Below, piece by piece: positions 2,736-52,885 of a stretch of DNA of 58,156 nt. The DNA comes from Saprospiraceae bacterium (GTDB lineage: Bacteria > Bacteroidota > Bacteroidia > Chitinophagales > Saprospiraceae). The stretch is taken from assembly GCA_016787345.1 (NCBI GenBank), contig JAEUUU010000133.1, forward strand, positions 1 to 58,156, read 5' to 3'. Position numbers and translations under genes: made by a program. The notes under the pieces were generated by a model. The model searched no databases. It was given only the letters and a program-made list of their open reading frames with translations, and had not been told where the DNA came from. The number at the start of each line of letters is the position of its first letter. Positions within the stretch are counted from its first letter, which is position 1.

Positions 2736-5141
2736 TTATTCCACTACGACCTTTCCCGTCACGCGGCCCCGGCTGTTTTCAACGCGGTACCAGTACAGGC
2801 CGGCCGGCAGTTCGTTGCTGTCGATCGCTACCGATTCGCCGCGCAACTCGCCGAACTGGCGCAAAACCCGACCCGTGGCATCGCTCAGGCTGACCCGTGT
2901 GGGTTCGCCGCCCGGGTTGTCGAAGAAAATACTGAACTGTTCGTTGGCCGGGTTGGGGATTGCGATGGCGCGGAAGGAATTGGCGCCGGGCTCCCATGCC
3001 GAAGATACCCCGGTGGACACGCAGTTCGGGTCGGCCAACTGCGCATTGCTGCGGAAGTATTTCTCGTTGACGATGGCCGTGATACCCGACACGCACACCT
3101 CGTCGCCCGTCAGTTGGCTGTAATGCACCCGTACGAATGCGGTAGGCAGAATGTTCTTTTTCAAAGGCGATTCAGTGCTCGTCAGGGCCATCAGTTTGCC
3201 CGTGGCCGCGTTGAACTGCCAGGTGGCATCGAAGGCCGGGTCGAGGCTTTCCACCCCGGTAATTTGCAGGCCGGATACCTGGAATTCAAAGCCGTACATT
3301 TTGTAGTACGGATTGACGATCATGACGTCGAAAGTCTTTGCCGTTTCATCCAGCGATCCGGGCAGCAGGTACACGATGTCTTCCGGGTTCTCGGCGCCGG
3401 TGGGGAACTGGCAGGCAAAGCGGGTGCCCCAGTATTGCGGGTCTTCGTTGTGGAGGATACATTCCTGCAGCAGGGCGGCGTCGTACACGTCGAGGGTTTC
3501 GCTGGCGTCGAGGTCGTTGCAGGCGGTGGCGTTGTCGTTGTCGGTGATGGCGGCGTCGAGGTAGGCGGCGATGTCGTCGCCGGCGCGTTCGAGGTCTTCA
3601 TTCCAGTCGCCGCGCAGGGCAGGGCCGTTGCAGTCGCCCTTGCAGTCGGGCTGTGCGTCGCCGAAAAGTTCGCCCAGACAGTCGGTGAATTGCGGGCAAT
3701 CGTTCACGACGTCGATAAAAGGATTGCCGGCGTTGTCGTAGCTTACGGTAAAGCAGGCTTGCGCCCAGTTGTTGTCGTAGGTGATTTCGGGGCGGCCGGT
3801 TTTGTCGGGCGATTTGTCCCAGTTGACGCGCACCACGAGCGTGTACAAGCCCTCCGGGATACCGGTGATATCGACCCATTGGCAGGGCAGGCTGGCGTCG
3901 TAAATGTCGCCGCAAGCCGCCGAAATGCCCATGTTGCTGCAGGTGTATTTGCCATCGCCGCCATCGGAGCATTCGAGGTCGAGTACGCAAAAACCGTTTT
4001 TGGAACCCAGTGGCAGGCGCACGCCGCTGGCATCGAACACGACGTACTCGGCGTAGCCGCGATAGTGCCAGTGGTTGTGGCAGGGGTCCCAGACGAATTG
4101 ATCGGAAGCCGTATTCGGCGAAGCCGGGGTTTCACCGATGAAATAATCGGCCGTCCCGATATTTTTAATGTGGGTTGTAAAGCGCAGGGCTACCCGGTTG
4201 CCAAAGCCGCGAATGCAACCTTCTTCCACGGCGCAAGCGTCGGCGTTGGGTATGATGGTGGGTTCGAGCGAATTGCGCAGCACGTTTTCAAGCACCACGA
4301 GGTCGGGCAGGTCGTTGCATTCCGGATCGCCGGGGTAGATGCAGGGGCCGCTGACCGAGGCGAGCGGCTGGTAGTTGCAGGCCGTCGGGTCGGTACAGCC
4401 CACGATCGGGCCCTGGTAGCTCAATTCGAAATTGATGGGCTGGCCGGTGCAGGCATTGGAGGCATTGCCGATGCGCACAAAGTACTCTTTGCCGCCTTCG
4501 AGAAACAGCGTCGCCACGGCGCCATTGGGGTCGTTGTCGCATCCGTCTTCGGCATAAAACAGGGTGCCCAGGTTGTTGTTGGTGATGGTAATGCCATCGC
4601 AGAGGTCGTACACCCAGATCTTGGATGGGCAGGCATTGCCCAGCCCGCAGGTGCTGATTTCGTAGGTGCCGTTCTCTGCCGGCACGAAGCGGTACCAGGT
4701 ATCGGCGTTGCCGTTGCTGGCGGTTTGTCCGGGACTGAGTGTAAGCGGGTTGTTGCAGAAGGTGCCGGGTGGGCAATCGAAACTGTAATTGTCTTCGTGC
4801 CCGTAGTTTTCGCCCAGGCTTTCGTGGATGAGCTCGTTGTCGCGGTAAAGGCGGTAAACCCCGTCGGGCGCCATGCCGTCGCCGTACGAATCGAGCATGC
4901 GGAAGATTTTACATTCGTCGGCCGGTACGCAATAGACGAAGGTTTGCGCGCCGGGACCTGCCAGCGCGCCGGTGGCGTAGGTCGTACTGCCGTCGATGCT
5001 TTGTAGTTTCCAGCTGACTTCCTGCCAGTAATAATCCGGCGTGATTTCGAGGCGGATTTCCACCTGCCCGACAGGGCACTGGGCCGACAACTGAGCGGCA
5101 AAAAGCAGGAACAGAATCAGGATGTAAAGGTGTTTTTTCAT
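2736..5141 (-). CDS. Secreted lysyl-oxidase-like protein with T9SS sorting domain
   Basis: An 801-residue exported protein. It starts with a signal peptide (MKKHLYILILFLLFAAQLSA); the ATG at 5141 is preferred over an in-frame ATG 15 bp upstream because it places the Lys-Lys pair at the N-terminus. Residues about 20-240 look like beta-sandwich pre-domains with DSYGDGM and DTWYRF words. Residues about 270-480 resemble the lysyl oxidase family: the copper-site motif CHNHWHY (about residue 353), then EYVVFDASG, GFCVLDLEC and DITGIPEGLY. A short dockerin-like stretch (DWNEDLERAGDD...DLDASETLDVYD) follows, then a C-terminal T9SS type A domain (AIPNPANEQFSIFF ... GLYWYRVEN). Known family members oxidise peptidyl lysine; activity here is inferred only. 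Confidence 0.85.
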   Translation of the reverse strand: MKKHLYILILFLLFAAQLSAQCPVGQVEIRLEITPDYYWQEVSWKLQSIDGSTTYATGALAGPGAQTFVYCVPADECKIFRMLDSYGDGMAPDGVYRLYRDNELIHESLGENYGHEDNYSFDCPPGTFCNNPLTLSPGQTASNGNADTWYRFVPAENGTYEISTCGLGNACPSKIWVYDLCDGITITNNNLGTLFYAEDGCDNDPNGAVATLFLEGGKEYFVRIGNASNACTGQPINFELSYQGPIVGCTDPTACNYQPLASVSGPCIYPGDPECNDLPDLVVLENVLRNSLEPTIIPNADACAVEEGCIRGFGNRVALRFTTHIKNIGTADYFIGETPASPNTASDQFVWDPCHNHWHYRGYAEYVVFDASGVRLPLGSKNGFCVLDLECSDGGDGKYTCSNMGISAACGDIYDASLPCQWVDITGIPEGLYTLVVRVNWDKSPDKTGRPEITYDNNWAQACFTVSYDNAGNPFIDVVNDCPQFTDCLGELFGDAQPDCKGDCNGPALRGDWNEDLERAGDDIAAYLDAAITDNDNATACNDLDASETLDVYDAALLQECILHNEDPQYWGTRFACQFPTGAENPEDIVYLLPGSLDETAKTFDVMIVNPYYKMYGFEFQVSGLQITGVESLDPAFDATWQFNAATGKLMALTSTESPLKKNILPTAFVRVHYSQLTGDEVCVSGITAIVNEKYFRSNAQLADPNCVSTGVSSAWEPGANSFRAIAIPNPANEQFSIFFDNPGGEPTRVSLSDATGRVLRQFGELRGESVAIDSNELPAGLYWYRVENSRGRVTGKVVVE

Positions 5142-47831: not shown

Positions 47832-48134
47832 TGTGAATGAGGTATGAGAAGGTGAACGAATCGTTTTTTCATTGATTCATCAAAATAGCAAAGCGTTGTA
47901 TAGCCCGGTCGGGACGCCTGGCATTTGCCATTCGATGACAAAATAAAGCGCTTTGCTCCGCCAATTCGTCACGACGGTTGCGTATTTGTTGTAAAAATGA
48001 CCTTTTTAATCAATATTTACTGTCAATTTTACAGCCACAGCCCTCCGATTTGGGGTTGGTCAAAAATTTGCCGGCCAGTCGGTATTCACAAGATCCCGAT
48101 ATTCCTCCCCTAAAAAAGAACTGATTTACGACGC
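47832..48134. other. Divergent promoter region between the T9SS gene and clpB
   Basis: No coding frame stands out in 303 bp. It contains a 10-bp palindrome AAAGCGCTTT (near 47945-47954) and an inverted pair AGCAAAGCG (47887-47895) / CGCTTTGCT (47949-47957). These could be an operator or hairpin. No CIRCE element (TTAGCACTC) for heat-shock control of clpB was seen, and no confident TAnnTTTG. Confidence 0.45.
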
Positions 48135-50774
<2,640 letters not shown>

Positions 50775-50777
<3 letters not shown>

Positions 50778-51282
50778 CGCCGACCTCCAGGTCGGCGAGT
50801 CTGAGAGCAGCAGTGCCCCGCGATTACCAGCCAAAACTCCGATCCGTGGGATGATTGCCGGCTTATCCGAAGAGATATTGCATGGAGCAATATAGCTTAA
50901 TCGCGGAACATTACTGCTCGTAGACTCGCCGCAGTAGCGCCGACCTCCAGGTCGGCGAGTCTGAGCGCAGCAGTGCCCCGCGATTATCAGCCAAAGCCGC
51001 GATCCGTGGGATGACTGCCGGCTTATCCGAAGAGATATTGCATGGAGCAATATAGTTTAATCGCGGTGCATTACTGCTCGCAGACTCGCCGCTGTAGCGC
51101 CGACCTCCAGGTCGGCGAGTCACGTAGCAGCAGTGCCCCGCGATTATCAGCCAAAGCTCCAATCCGTGGGATAATTGCTGGCTTATCCGAAGAGATATTG
51201 CATGGAGCAATATAGCTTAATCGCGGTGCATTACTGCTCTCAACAGCGCCGACCTGGAGGTCGGCGCTACAGATCGGCGCTA
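50775..51282. repeat. Array of three 160-bp composite palindromic repeats, left of RAYT
   Basis: TAGCGCCGACCTCC begins at 50775, 50935 and 51095, an exact 160-bp period. Each unit has a short palindrome (CGCCGACCT-cc-AGGTCGGCG), then a long near-palindrome. In that, GGCGAGTCTGAG...CAGTGCCCCGCGATTA pairs with TAATCGCGG...CATTACTGCTCG...AGACTCGCC, enclosing an ATATTGC/GCAATAT hairpin. The array ends with an inverted copy of the border (GGTCGGCGCTA). The first three bases are the clpB stop codon; the last three are the stop codon of the transposase. Confidence 0.9.
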
Positions 51283-51894
51283 CTGCGCAAAAACCGTATA
51301 CGGCCAATCCTCCCACCGCTCCACCAATTTTGCCTTGACCGGATTGTTCAAAATATACCGAACAATCCGGTCAAATTCTTCCGCGTTTCTCACCCAGTGG
51401 TCATACGTTTCTTTCTGCCAGAAATGCCCGGTTCTCCGCAGTAAGCGGTTACATTGTTTTCCGGTAAATGCCTTGTGCACTTGTAATATTTTGGACAAGG
51501 AGGAGCCGCCTTCCCTGTGTTGTAATAAAACATGTACATGATTGGGCATAATGCATAGTGCATGAATTTGCACGCCATAAGTTTCCAGATGCGACCAGGA
51601 ATTGATCACTTCATGAGCAATTTCGGGCTGTTTCAACCAGTAAGGACCGTTTGGGTTTTGGTCGAGGTGTTCGTCGTAATGGACAAAAAAACGACGTTGC
51701 AAAGCGTAAGTTGCCTGATCGAGTGTTTGTCCGGAAAGCCGGCTCCTGAGCTGCAAGGTTTCGGAAGCAAAGTTCCTTTGCAACTCAAAAAGTTTGGATT
51801 GAGGTATTGACCCGTATAATCGATACGTAAGAAAAAAAGCAGCGCCGGGCGGGTGCCAGTGCGGCAAATTGCGTTCGTAATAGATTTTTTGCAT
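51280..51894 (-). CDS. REP-associated tyrosine transposase (RAYT), HUH/Y1 family
   Basis: The ATG at 51894 gives 204 residues with the complete Y1 (IS200-like) fold: PHWHPPGAAFFLTYRLYG at the start, the HUH motif in CIMPNHVHVLLQH (His119-x-His121) and the catalytic tyrosine in RIVRYILNNPVKAKLV (Tyr180), preceded by FWQKETYDHWVR. The PHWHPPGA and NNPVKA signatures are those of RAYTs. These are single-copy domesticated relatives of transposases that process REP palindromes by single-strand cleavage. The frame is open to 52056, but that extension translates repeat DNA. Repeat arrays lie on both sides and its TAG stop is the repeat border. Confidence 0.92.
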   Translation of the reverse strand: MQKIYYERNLPHWHPPGAAFFLTYRLYGSIPQSKLFELQRNFASETLQLRSRLSGQTLDQATYALQRRFFVHYDEHLDQNPNGPYWLKQPEIAHEVINSWSHLETYGVQIHALCIMPNHVHVLLQHREGGSSLSKILQVHKAFTGKQCNRLLRRTGHFWQKETYDHWVRNAEEFDRIVRYILNNPVKAKLVERWEDWPYTVFAQ

Positions 51895-51996
51895 AGCGGC
51901 CTGGATTGTGTTTTTGTTCAAAATTGGCGGGCTATGTCGAAAAATGAATGGAATGGAGCCGGCAGAAGGAAAATAAATATCAATACTGTAGCCCTG

Positions 51997-52346
51997 TAGC
52001 GCCGACCTCCAGGTCGGCGAGTCTGAGAGCAGCAGCGCCCCGCGATTACCAGCCAAAACTCCGATCCGTGGGATGATTGCCGGCTTATCCGAAGAGATAT
52101 TGCATGGAGCAATATAGCTTTATCGCGGGGCATTACTGCTCTCAACAGCGCCGACCTGGAGGTCGGCGCTACAGGTCGGCGAGTCTACGAGCAGAAGCGC
52201 CCCGCGATTACCAGCCAAAACTCCGATCCGTGGGATGATTGCCGGCTTATCCGAAGAGATATTGCATGGAGCAATATAGCTTAATCGCGGGGCATTACTG
52301 CTCTCAACAGCGCCGACCTGGAGGTCGGCGCTACAGGCGGCGCTAC
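51997..52346. repeat. Array of two composite palindromic repeats, right of RAYT
   Basis: Copies at 51997-52172 and 52173-52336 have the same build as the units at 50775-51282, including the ATATTGC/GCAATAT hairpin and the CCCCGCGATTA arm. Here the closing palindrome is CAGCGCCGACCT-gg-AGGTCGGCGCTA. In the second copy both the CCCCGCGATTA and TAATCGCGGGG arms pair perfectly. A partial GGCGGCGCTAC closes the array at 52346. Confidence 0.88.
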
Positions 52347-52377
52347 AAGGCGCTGCGGCAAAAAATAAACGCAGCTA

Positions 52378-52407
52378 TTGTTTGCCGGCAGAAAATCCCT
52401 ACCTTTG
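52378..52407 (+). promoter_or_regulatory. Promoter of the rpsF-rpsR-rplI operon (TTG-N19-TACCTTTG)
   Basis: TTG (52378-52380) and TACCTTTG (52400-52407) are separated by exactly 19 bp, a textbook Bacteroidota sigma-A promoter. It lies 32 bp right of the repeat array and about 50 bp before the rpsF ATG. Confidence 0.75.
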
Positions 52408-52456
52408 CGGCCTCTTTTTTTAAAAAAGTTCTTTAAAATTTTACAAAGTATTGTAA

Positions 52457-52885
52457 ATGAGACATTATGAAGTCACCTTCATCGTAGATCCAGTGCTGTC
52501 GGGCGATGAAGTAAAATCGACAGCGGATCACGTCCAGAAAGAGTTGAAAAACTTCGGCGCCACTATCGTGGCTGTGGACGAGATGGGCCTCCGTCAATTG
52601 GCCTACTCCATCAACAAACGCTCCTCGGGCGTTTATTACAACATCGAGTTCGGGTGCGACGGCGCCAACTGGCTGGCCAAATTCGAACTCAACATGAAGC
52701 GCGACGAACGCGTTCTCCGCTTCCTTACCGTCAAACTCGACAAGTACGGCGTCAAGTACAACGACGACAAGCGCAACGGCCGCATCGGTTCCAAAAAGAA
52801 GGTTACCGAAGCGCCTGCCGCAGCGCCCGCCGCCGAAGAAACGGTTGTACCCGCTCCCGAAGTCATCGACCTCGACGCAAACTAA
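52457..52885 (+). CDS. rpsF: 30S ribosomal protein S6
   Basis: A 142-residue protein with the S6 ferredoxin-like fold: MRHYEVTFIVDPVLSGDEV, KNFGATIVAVDEMGLRQLAYSINKRSSGVYYNIEF and RDERVLRFLTVKLDKYGVKY. After residue about 100 an Ala/Pro/Glu-rich tail follows (APAAAPAAEETVVPAP). S6 binds S18 and the central domain of 16S rRNA. First gene of an operon with rpsR and rplI; gaps are 73 and 29 bp. No ssb or priB gene lies between rpsF and rpsR, where many bacteria have one. Confidence 0.95.
   Translation: MRHYEVTFIVDPVLSGDEVKSTADHVQKELKNFGATIVAVDEMGLRQLAYSINKRSSGVYYNIEFGCDGANWLAKFELNMKRDERVLRFLTVKLDKYGVKYNDDKRNGRIGSKKKVTEAPAAAPAAEETVVPAPEVIDLDAN

Follow-up and report, generated by a model that had tools for sequence, protein, structure and literature searches.

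A single RAYT gene lies among repeat arrays in the genome of a bacterium of the family Saprospiraceae. The REPINs found throughout that genome are very probably served by this one RAYT, which makes the two together a REPtron. The partnership is of a known kind, and it is described here in a new example. The gene is the only RAYT match in its draft genome (94% complete) and has REPs on both flanks.

The RAYT locus

The DNA analysed, referred to as the window, is a stretch of 58,156 nucleotides. It forms contig C151 of a draft genome that totals 5.28 Mb in 191 contigs. A first-pass annotation of the window had described a RAYT with an HUH motif (His119 and His121) and a catalytic Tyr180, flanked by three repeat units to its left and two to its right. 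This arrangement is confirmed, with the five units spaced 160, 160, 902, and 162 bp apart (Table 1). The genes on either side are presumably a clpB-like and an rpsF-like gene. The clpB-like gene stops at the TAG of the first REP.

Table 1. Features of the RAYT locus, in window positions.
Feature	Position	Strand	Remark
clpB-like flanking gene (presumed)	48135..50777	+	stop codon inside REP 1
REP 1	50774..50797	+	GTAG + hairpin, CC loop
Spacer, unit 1	50798..50933		partial REP at right end
REP 2	50934..50957	+	
Spacer, unit 2	50958..51093		partial REP at right end
REP 3	51094..51117	+	
Spacer, unit 3	51118..51246		
REP 4	51247..51270	-	inverted, last of left array
RAYT / TnpA_REP gene	51280..51894	-	204 aa; HUH His119/His121, Tyr180
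REP 5	51996..52019	+	first of right array
Spacer, unit 4	52020..52148		with both REPs, z -11.3 as single-stranded DNA
REP 6	52149..52172	-	inverted
Spacer, unit 5	52173..52310		partial REP at left end
REP 7	52311..52334	-	inverted, last of right array
rpsF-like flanking gene (presumed)	52457..52885	+	

The protein has the features expected of a RAYT: the HUH motif (HVH at residues 119-121), the W of the WQ pair, and the catalytic tyrosine. It matches the Pfam domain Y1_Tnp and scores 100.4 bits against the NCBIfam model NF047646 (REP_Tyr_transpos), for which the cut-off is 80. A sequence search of the PDB returns one match at E values up to 1, namely 4ER8 (E 9.9e-8), the E. coli RAYT with a REP hairpin. 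The same entry comes first in a fold search (E 5.8e-9, TM by target 0.64) with an AlphaFold2 model of mean pLDDT 88.2, built from an alignment of 28 sequences. It is followed by IS200/IS605-type transposases. The score and the best match by both sequence and fold thus identify the protein as a REP-associated Y1 HUH transposase.

In PMC6006769, residues W94, Q95, E100, H101, and R104 of the E. coli enzyme are discussed for GTAG recognition. They align with W159, Q160, D165, H166, and R169 of the RAYT (numbering counted from the alignment). Residues N118, H119, H121, W159, D165, R169, and Y180 are invariant across the 28 sequences.

PHROGs yielded one matched family, of unknown function, and no tRNA was found in the window. 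A 974-aa open frame on the minus strand (48126-51050) runs antisense to the clpB-like gene and extends into the repeats. It is probably a by-product of base composition.

Anatomy and number of the REPs

Each REP is 24 nt long and consists of GTAG followed by a 9-bp hairpin with a polar CC loop. Its sequence is GTAG-CGCCGACCT-CC-AGGTCGGCG or the complement of this. The first-pass annotation had suggested that orphan copies might occur elsewhere in the genome, and they do: the palindrome CGCCGACCTNNAGGTCGGCG, with its two centre bases left free, occurs 114 times, compared with no occurrence of a reversed control pattern, and 112 copies of the 20-mer carry GTAG. Among 116 palindromes with a CC or GG centre in the fetched loci of this genome (the centres covered by that scan), read with CC on top, GTAG stands directly 5' in 112 and CTGTAG in 105. 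Many copies of a short palindrome tagged directly 5' in this way are what defines a GTAG REP. Other centres are rare among the REPs listed, with one CA in this genome and several CA or CT in the sister species G562. An additional GTAGCG lies within 24 bases before the tag in 57 of the 116 palindromes, and incomplete pieces of REP are often found outside the REPs.

The REPs are paired in inverted orientation with GTAG outermost, around spacers mostly 104-129 bp long. Such pairs are REPINs, also called BIMEs. Most arrays follow the order CC-type to GG-type, that is, head-to-head pairs around a spacer; the exceptions are L021, L022, L028, L031 (second array), L039, and an array cut at the start of L018. 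Among the arrays listed, at most three units stand in tandem.

This anatomy explains the size of the units, which the first-pass annotation had described as about 160 bp and much longer than classical REPs. The period is real, but it consists of a REP of 24 nt and a spacer, with an inverted REP closing the unit, and not of one long REP. The proposal that the RAYT has an unusually large substrate is not supported, since the constant, polar part of the unit is the short GTAG hairpin.

Spacer classes and folding

From the arrays, 67 spacers were extracted, with intervals above 200 bp left out and four further intervals unparseable. Of these, 63 belong to a main class with conserved 27-bp arms in nearly all and a variable core. 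The other four begin with CACGATC and form a second class bounded by the identical REP. This class is seen at L023:2412-2835 and L027:2258-2345. Because one and the same REP bounds different spacer classes, the long spacer looks like cargo.

The two whole units that were folded as single-stranded DNA can each form one hairpin. Their z scores are -11.3 for the unit at 51996-52172 of the window and -15.6 for the unit at L013. The core alone, folded with RNA parameters, has a mean z of -1.23, with 17 of 63 cores below -2.

Covariation, for which the first-pass annotation had proposed to align the copies, is absent. In a test of 37 units, one per array (three of them with arms of unequal length), the two arms of an element have a similarity of 0.679, compared with 0.709 when arms of different elements are re-paired; 4993 of 5000 permutations equal or exceed the observed value. 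The first 12 core bases behave likewise (0.453 observed, 0.490 permuted). Compensatory changes that keep the spacer paired, a descriptive feature of REPINs, were not found in this 37-unit test. The result contradicts a first impression by eye that the cores are compensated palindromes. Together with the weak core z scores, it also leads to rejection of a covarying RNA or DNA stem as a general feature of the spacer. The elements are thus heterodimers, and pairing rests on a common consensus, not on compensation.

Distribution in other genomes

Among the genomes sampled, this REP family is specific to its own lineage. By exact matching, the GTAG pattern occurs in one of 395 genomes of the phylum, which is the genome under study, and in none of the 394 others. 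In the genus it occurs in two of 41 genomes, this one (112) and G562 (63). In the family, exact matches to the 20-mer occur in two of 150 genomes, this one and G027 with a single copy. The outcome that no other copies exist in the genome or its relatives, which would have spoken against the first-pass reading, thus did not occur.

RAYT-matching proteins are more widespread. At E values up to 1e-3 they are found in 65 of 150 family genomes and in 27 of 41 genus genomes, this one included, many of these matches being weak. The best match in a congener has 59% identity, as does the closest named RAYT relative, which comes from a Saprospiraceae MAG.

Hairpins of the same type accompany many related RAYT genes. 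The flanks of 80 related RAYT genes, the best 80 of 547 in named genomes, were scanned for perfect GTAG hairpins with a stem of at least 7 bp. Within 500 bp of the genes there are 157, or 2.1 per kb, and the regions beyond 1 kb contain 19, or 0.072 per kb; the density near the gene is about 29 times higher. Part of this enrichment is due to context, since intergenic DNA makes up most of the near regions but not of the far ones. GTGG hairpins reach 0.52 per kb near and 0.023 far, and seven other tetramers 0.01-0.15 near and 0.004-0.027 far. At 52 of the 80 loci at least one GTAG hairpin lies within 500 bp; at 28 none does. A lack of any link with the transposase clade, the other outcome that would have counted against the first-pass reading, was not observed either. 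Hairpin stem sequences vary between lineages of these relatives. In other groups, the pairing of REPs with RAYTs by lineage has been reported (PMC2817692).

Repeated flank segments, many of them palindromic, were also seen at 27 of 29 RAYT loci of the family (L040-L068) in a scan without a control. Some are long and composite, for example at L042, L044, L062, and L067, and they differ in sequence from the REP family described here.

Local kinship of spacers

Neighbouring arrays tend to have related spacers. Kinship was measured on the 63 main-class cores in 37 arrays, with shuffled array places as the null. The 14 pairs of arrays on the same contig and less than 20 kb apart have a mean core similarity of 0.80, compared with 0.52 after shuffling (0 of 10000 permutations). 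Nine pairs 2-25 kb apart have a similarity of 0.79 (0 of 10000 permutations), and six pairs at 25-60 kb, all from a single contig, have 0.45, with no effect. Close kin are found in either orientation. For some arrays of this unordered draft assembly the closest kin is on another contig (C53/C105 at 0.93, C146/C38 at 0.92), and arrays on C117, C160, and C164 have no close kin.

Segmental duplication was rejected as the source of this kinship. A comparison within contigs of the 620-bp flanks that begin 40 bp outside each array showed no similarity between arrays more than 2 kb apart. The matches that did appear are overlaps of adjacent flanks in close pairs and a few short extra repeats (at C11, C38, two close arrays on C71, and in the window).

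Remodelling at orthologous sites

The sister species G562 (82% complete) can be compared with this genome site by site, the flanks being mostly 91-98% identical. No RAYT match was found in its assembly. The two flanks of the RAYT locus lie on G562 contigs C179 and C206, both of which begin with REP arrays. Because these contigs end inside arrays, the RAYT gene may fall in the gap, and an assembly gap may account for its absence. The clpB-like and rpsF-like regions are on separate contigs in G040 and G141 as well.

Most arrays occupy the same sites in both species. Of 31 sister loci examined, 28 anchor at sites occupied by arrays in this genome (all except L214, L250, and L254), giving 33 array pairs that include a few arrays anchored twice. 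Since the anchoring loci of this genome all hold arrays, the test is biased towards common sites. A search for REPIN-empty sites, at L010 in 41 genomes and at L031 and L018 in G562, gave no clean one.

The contents of the sites have changed. Unit number differs between the species, for example one against three at L037/L210. Five of the 33 pairs have no comparable units; of the 28 compared, 24 have a similarity of at least 0.7, 20 in the same orientation and four inverted. At the nine sites anchored by both flanks, six spacers have the same orientation and three have an inverted core in the sister. These three, picked out by eye before scoring, are L026/L207 (0.73 inverted, 0.37 same orientation), L033/L217 (0.83 and 0.58), and L032/L226 (0.89 and 0.50). 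The fourth inverted pair, L251/L012, is anchored by one flank, which also matches L018, and is excluded from the nine. At L206/L039 the inverted similarity is 0.67, below the threshold.

An inverted core may have arisen in place or by replacement with a related copy. Replacement is possible at two of the three sites, since another copy in this genome (C38) is nearly as close to L226 (0.87) and an inverted neighbour array lies 4 kb from L033. For L026 the fetched loci of the two genomes contain no further copy, which favours a flip in place. Both genomes are drafts, and an apparent inversion may be an assembly error.

Several side observations were made at these loci. At L205 (G562 contig C19) one sister array joins the flanks of two arrays of this genome, on C80 and C10, through either rearrangement at REPs or assembly error. 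A different interspersed repeat lies at L031:6190-6440, with many partial matches in the sister genome, and short GATTCGATT-type repeats lie at L018:2725-2764 and 3156-3197, also with many matches there. A segment of about 1.07 kb, L010:1-1071, recurs in full or in part, at 82-98%, on several contigs of this genome and is possibly an insertion sequence.

Local kinship and flips together fit local, orientation-blind copying or recombination, with draft assemblies and replacement by related copies as caveats. One model for the changes is that the RAYT founded the family and that today's remodelling results from recombination by the host and from slippage of replication at inverted and tandem repeats. 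This model is quite possible, a little short of an even chance, and it is compatible with the REPtron reading of what the family is. It accounts for unit numbers that vary at fixed sites, and none of the 33 flank-anchored pairs is demonstrably new. At L033/L217 the left arm is identical at 27 of 27 positions and the core is inverted, so the exchange took place at or inside the arms, as host recombination would have it. However, slippage alone does not give kin up to about 20 kb apart without similar flanks beyond 2 kb, and gene conversion between dispersed copies would need short homology.

Arrays at gene ends

The arrays lie at the ends of genes, and the end of the next ORF is often only a few bases away. 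Crude ORF calls put 18 of 43 arrays between tandem ORFs, 15 between convergent and five between divergent ORFs, with five undetermined; these calls are rough, and antisense ORFs are counted as genes within the window. For the 27 arrays without overlapping ORFs of at least 100 aa, the counts are 11 convergent, nine tandem, three divergent, and four undetermined. Of 186 occurrences of GTAGCGCC, 23 have their TAG in frame with an open stretch of 150 codons or more; the two shifted frames give 5 and 7. The 23 include the clpB-like gene and the RAYT itself. Use of the TAG of the GTAG tag as a stop codon is already published (PMC3733652).

Such placement raises the idea that the repeats persist chiefly as elements of RNA or of chromosome structure, such as terminators, mRNA stabilisers, or protein-binding sites, with the RAYT incidental. 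The excess of convergent and tandem over divergent arrays and of in-frame TAGs speaks for it, and roles of this kind are published for other REPs (PMC3733652). Yet the stretch 50600-52500 contains no Rfam family at gathering score (five sub-threshold matches, E 0.15-0.4), and its one promoter-like and three terminator-like sites compare with 2.2 and 2.6 expected from shuffles. The absence of covariation within elements also argues against structural elements, and the idea does not explain why GTAG hairpins adjoin the RAYT gene in 52 of 80 relatives. The idea is distinctly improbable.

That the units belong as MITEs to some other, unseen transposon and surround the RAYT by chance is hardly credible: their inverted ends and their length of about 170 bp are MITE-like, but GTAG hairpins adjoin the related RAYTs at those same 52 loci, and the REPs are constant while the spacers vary.

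Comparison with known systems

The REPINs of P. fluorescens SBW25 (PMC3116915) resemble the present ones as inverted REP doublets with a hairpin-forming spacer, in tandem arrays, and with a REPIN cluster beside each RAYT. In SBW25, however, the conserved 16-mers of a doublet are 71 or 110 bp apart, the spacers here being mostly 104-129 bp, and compensatory spacer changes are called common, whereas none were found here within elements.

Head-to-head GTAG dimers (PMC3733652) are alike in having GTAG outside, structured spacers, several spacer types per family, and frequent heterodimers, and in lying downstream of genes with TAG as stop codon. Most of their spacers are 20-100 bp, in contrast to mostly 104-129 bp here. 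That source lists GTAG repeats for Proteobacteria, Cyanobacteria, Chloroflexi, and the PVC group; for Bacteroidetes it lists only CGTC repeats.

Among the TnpA_REP subclasses of PMC6006769, the NHVH, WQ, and YILNNP motifs of the RAYT fit both 2.4 and 2.7, and GT[AG]G REPs beside the gene are a further likeness. Subclass 2.4 is called abundant in Bacteroidetes and has a median HUH-to-Tyr distance of 88. A distance of 61 and Asp at the E100 position in the RAYT fit 2.7 better than 2.4, and the RAYT may belong to either.

Group 3 REPtrons, such as S. maltophilia Sm (PMC8266576), share a short perfect palindrome, GTAG, and a loop base that matters. Their enzymes were assayed and CT is the cleavage dinucleotide, a role that the CT before GTAG would have here. 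The Group 3 HUH motif is DH[LF]H (PMC6006769), compared with NHVH here.

A link between REP number and the presence of the cognate RAYT is likewise described for RAYTs with nearby REPs (PMC2817692). The same source states that REPs may be made preferentially near the gene, and reports more REPs near the rayt gene. That pattern concerns nearness to the rayt gene, whereas the kinship described here is among orphan copies far from the RAYT. The literature covered, which leaves out most subscription journals, yielded no report of spacer kinship by distance or of REPIN spacer inversion.

Mechanism and significance

If the family is a REPtron, its REPINs would be moved by the RAYT of the same genome, and we infer both cleavage by this enzyme and locality as a product of the movement step. 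Published enzymes bind single-stranded GTAG hairpins and cut at CT (PMC8266576). By analogy, the RAYT would bind the REP folded as single-stranded DNA and cleave at a CT close by, which in these REPs would be the one directly before GTAG. The presence of this CT and the residues in common with the E. coli enzyme agree with such cleavage. Two inverted REPs would then constitute the mobile unit, the REPIN or head-to-head dimer, which as a single strand could pair into one long hairpin. The RAYT would copy or move REPINs in trans, preferably to nearby sites and in either orientation, and the tandem units at a site would afterwards grow or shrink in number.

A further proposal makes the RAYT the agent of the remodelling itself. 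REPINs would move or recombine locally regardless of orientation, the body being reinserted or flipped between fixed REPs. This proposal is doubtful. Under it, the RAYT would act on both REPs, and flipping of a spacer between REPs that stay in place would resemble a two-state switch at gene ends.

The manner of REP spread is said to await elucidation (PMC8266576). With one RAYT, one REP sequence, sister genomes, diverse spacers, and apparent flips, movement becomes measurable in this system. Of all the observations, local kinship and inversion of the spacers most deserve further study. Should the flips be due to the RAYT, a domesticated HUH enzyme would act as a local DNA inverter; if they are not, host recombination remodels REPINs in place.
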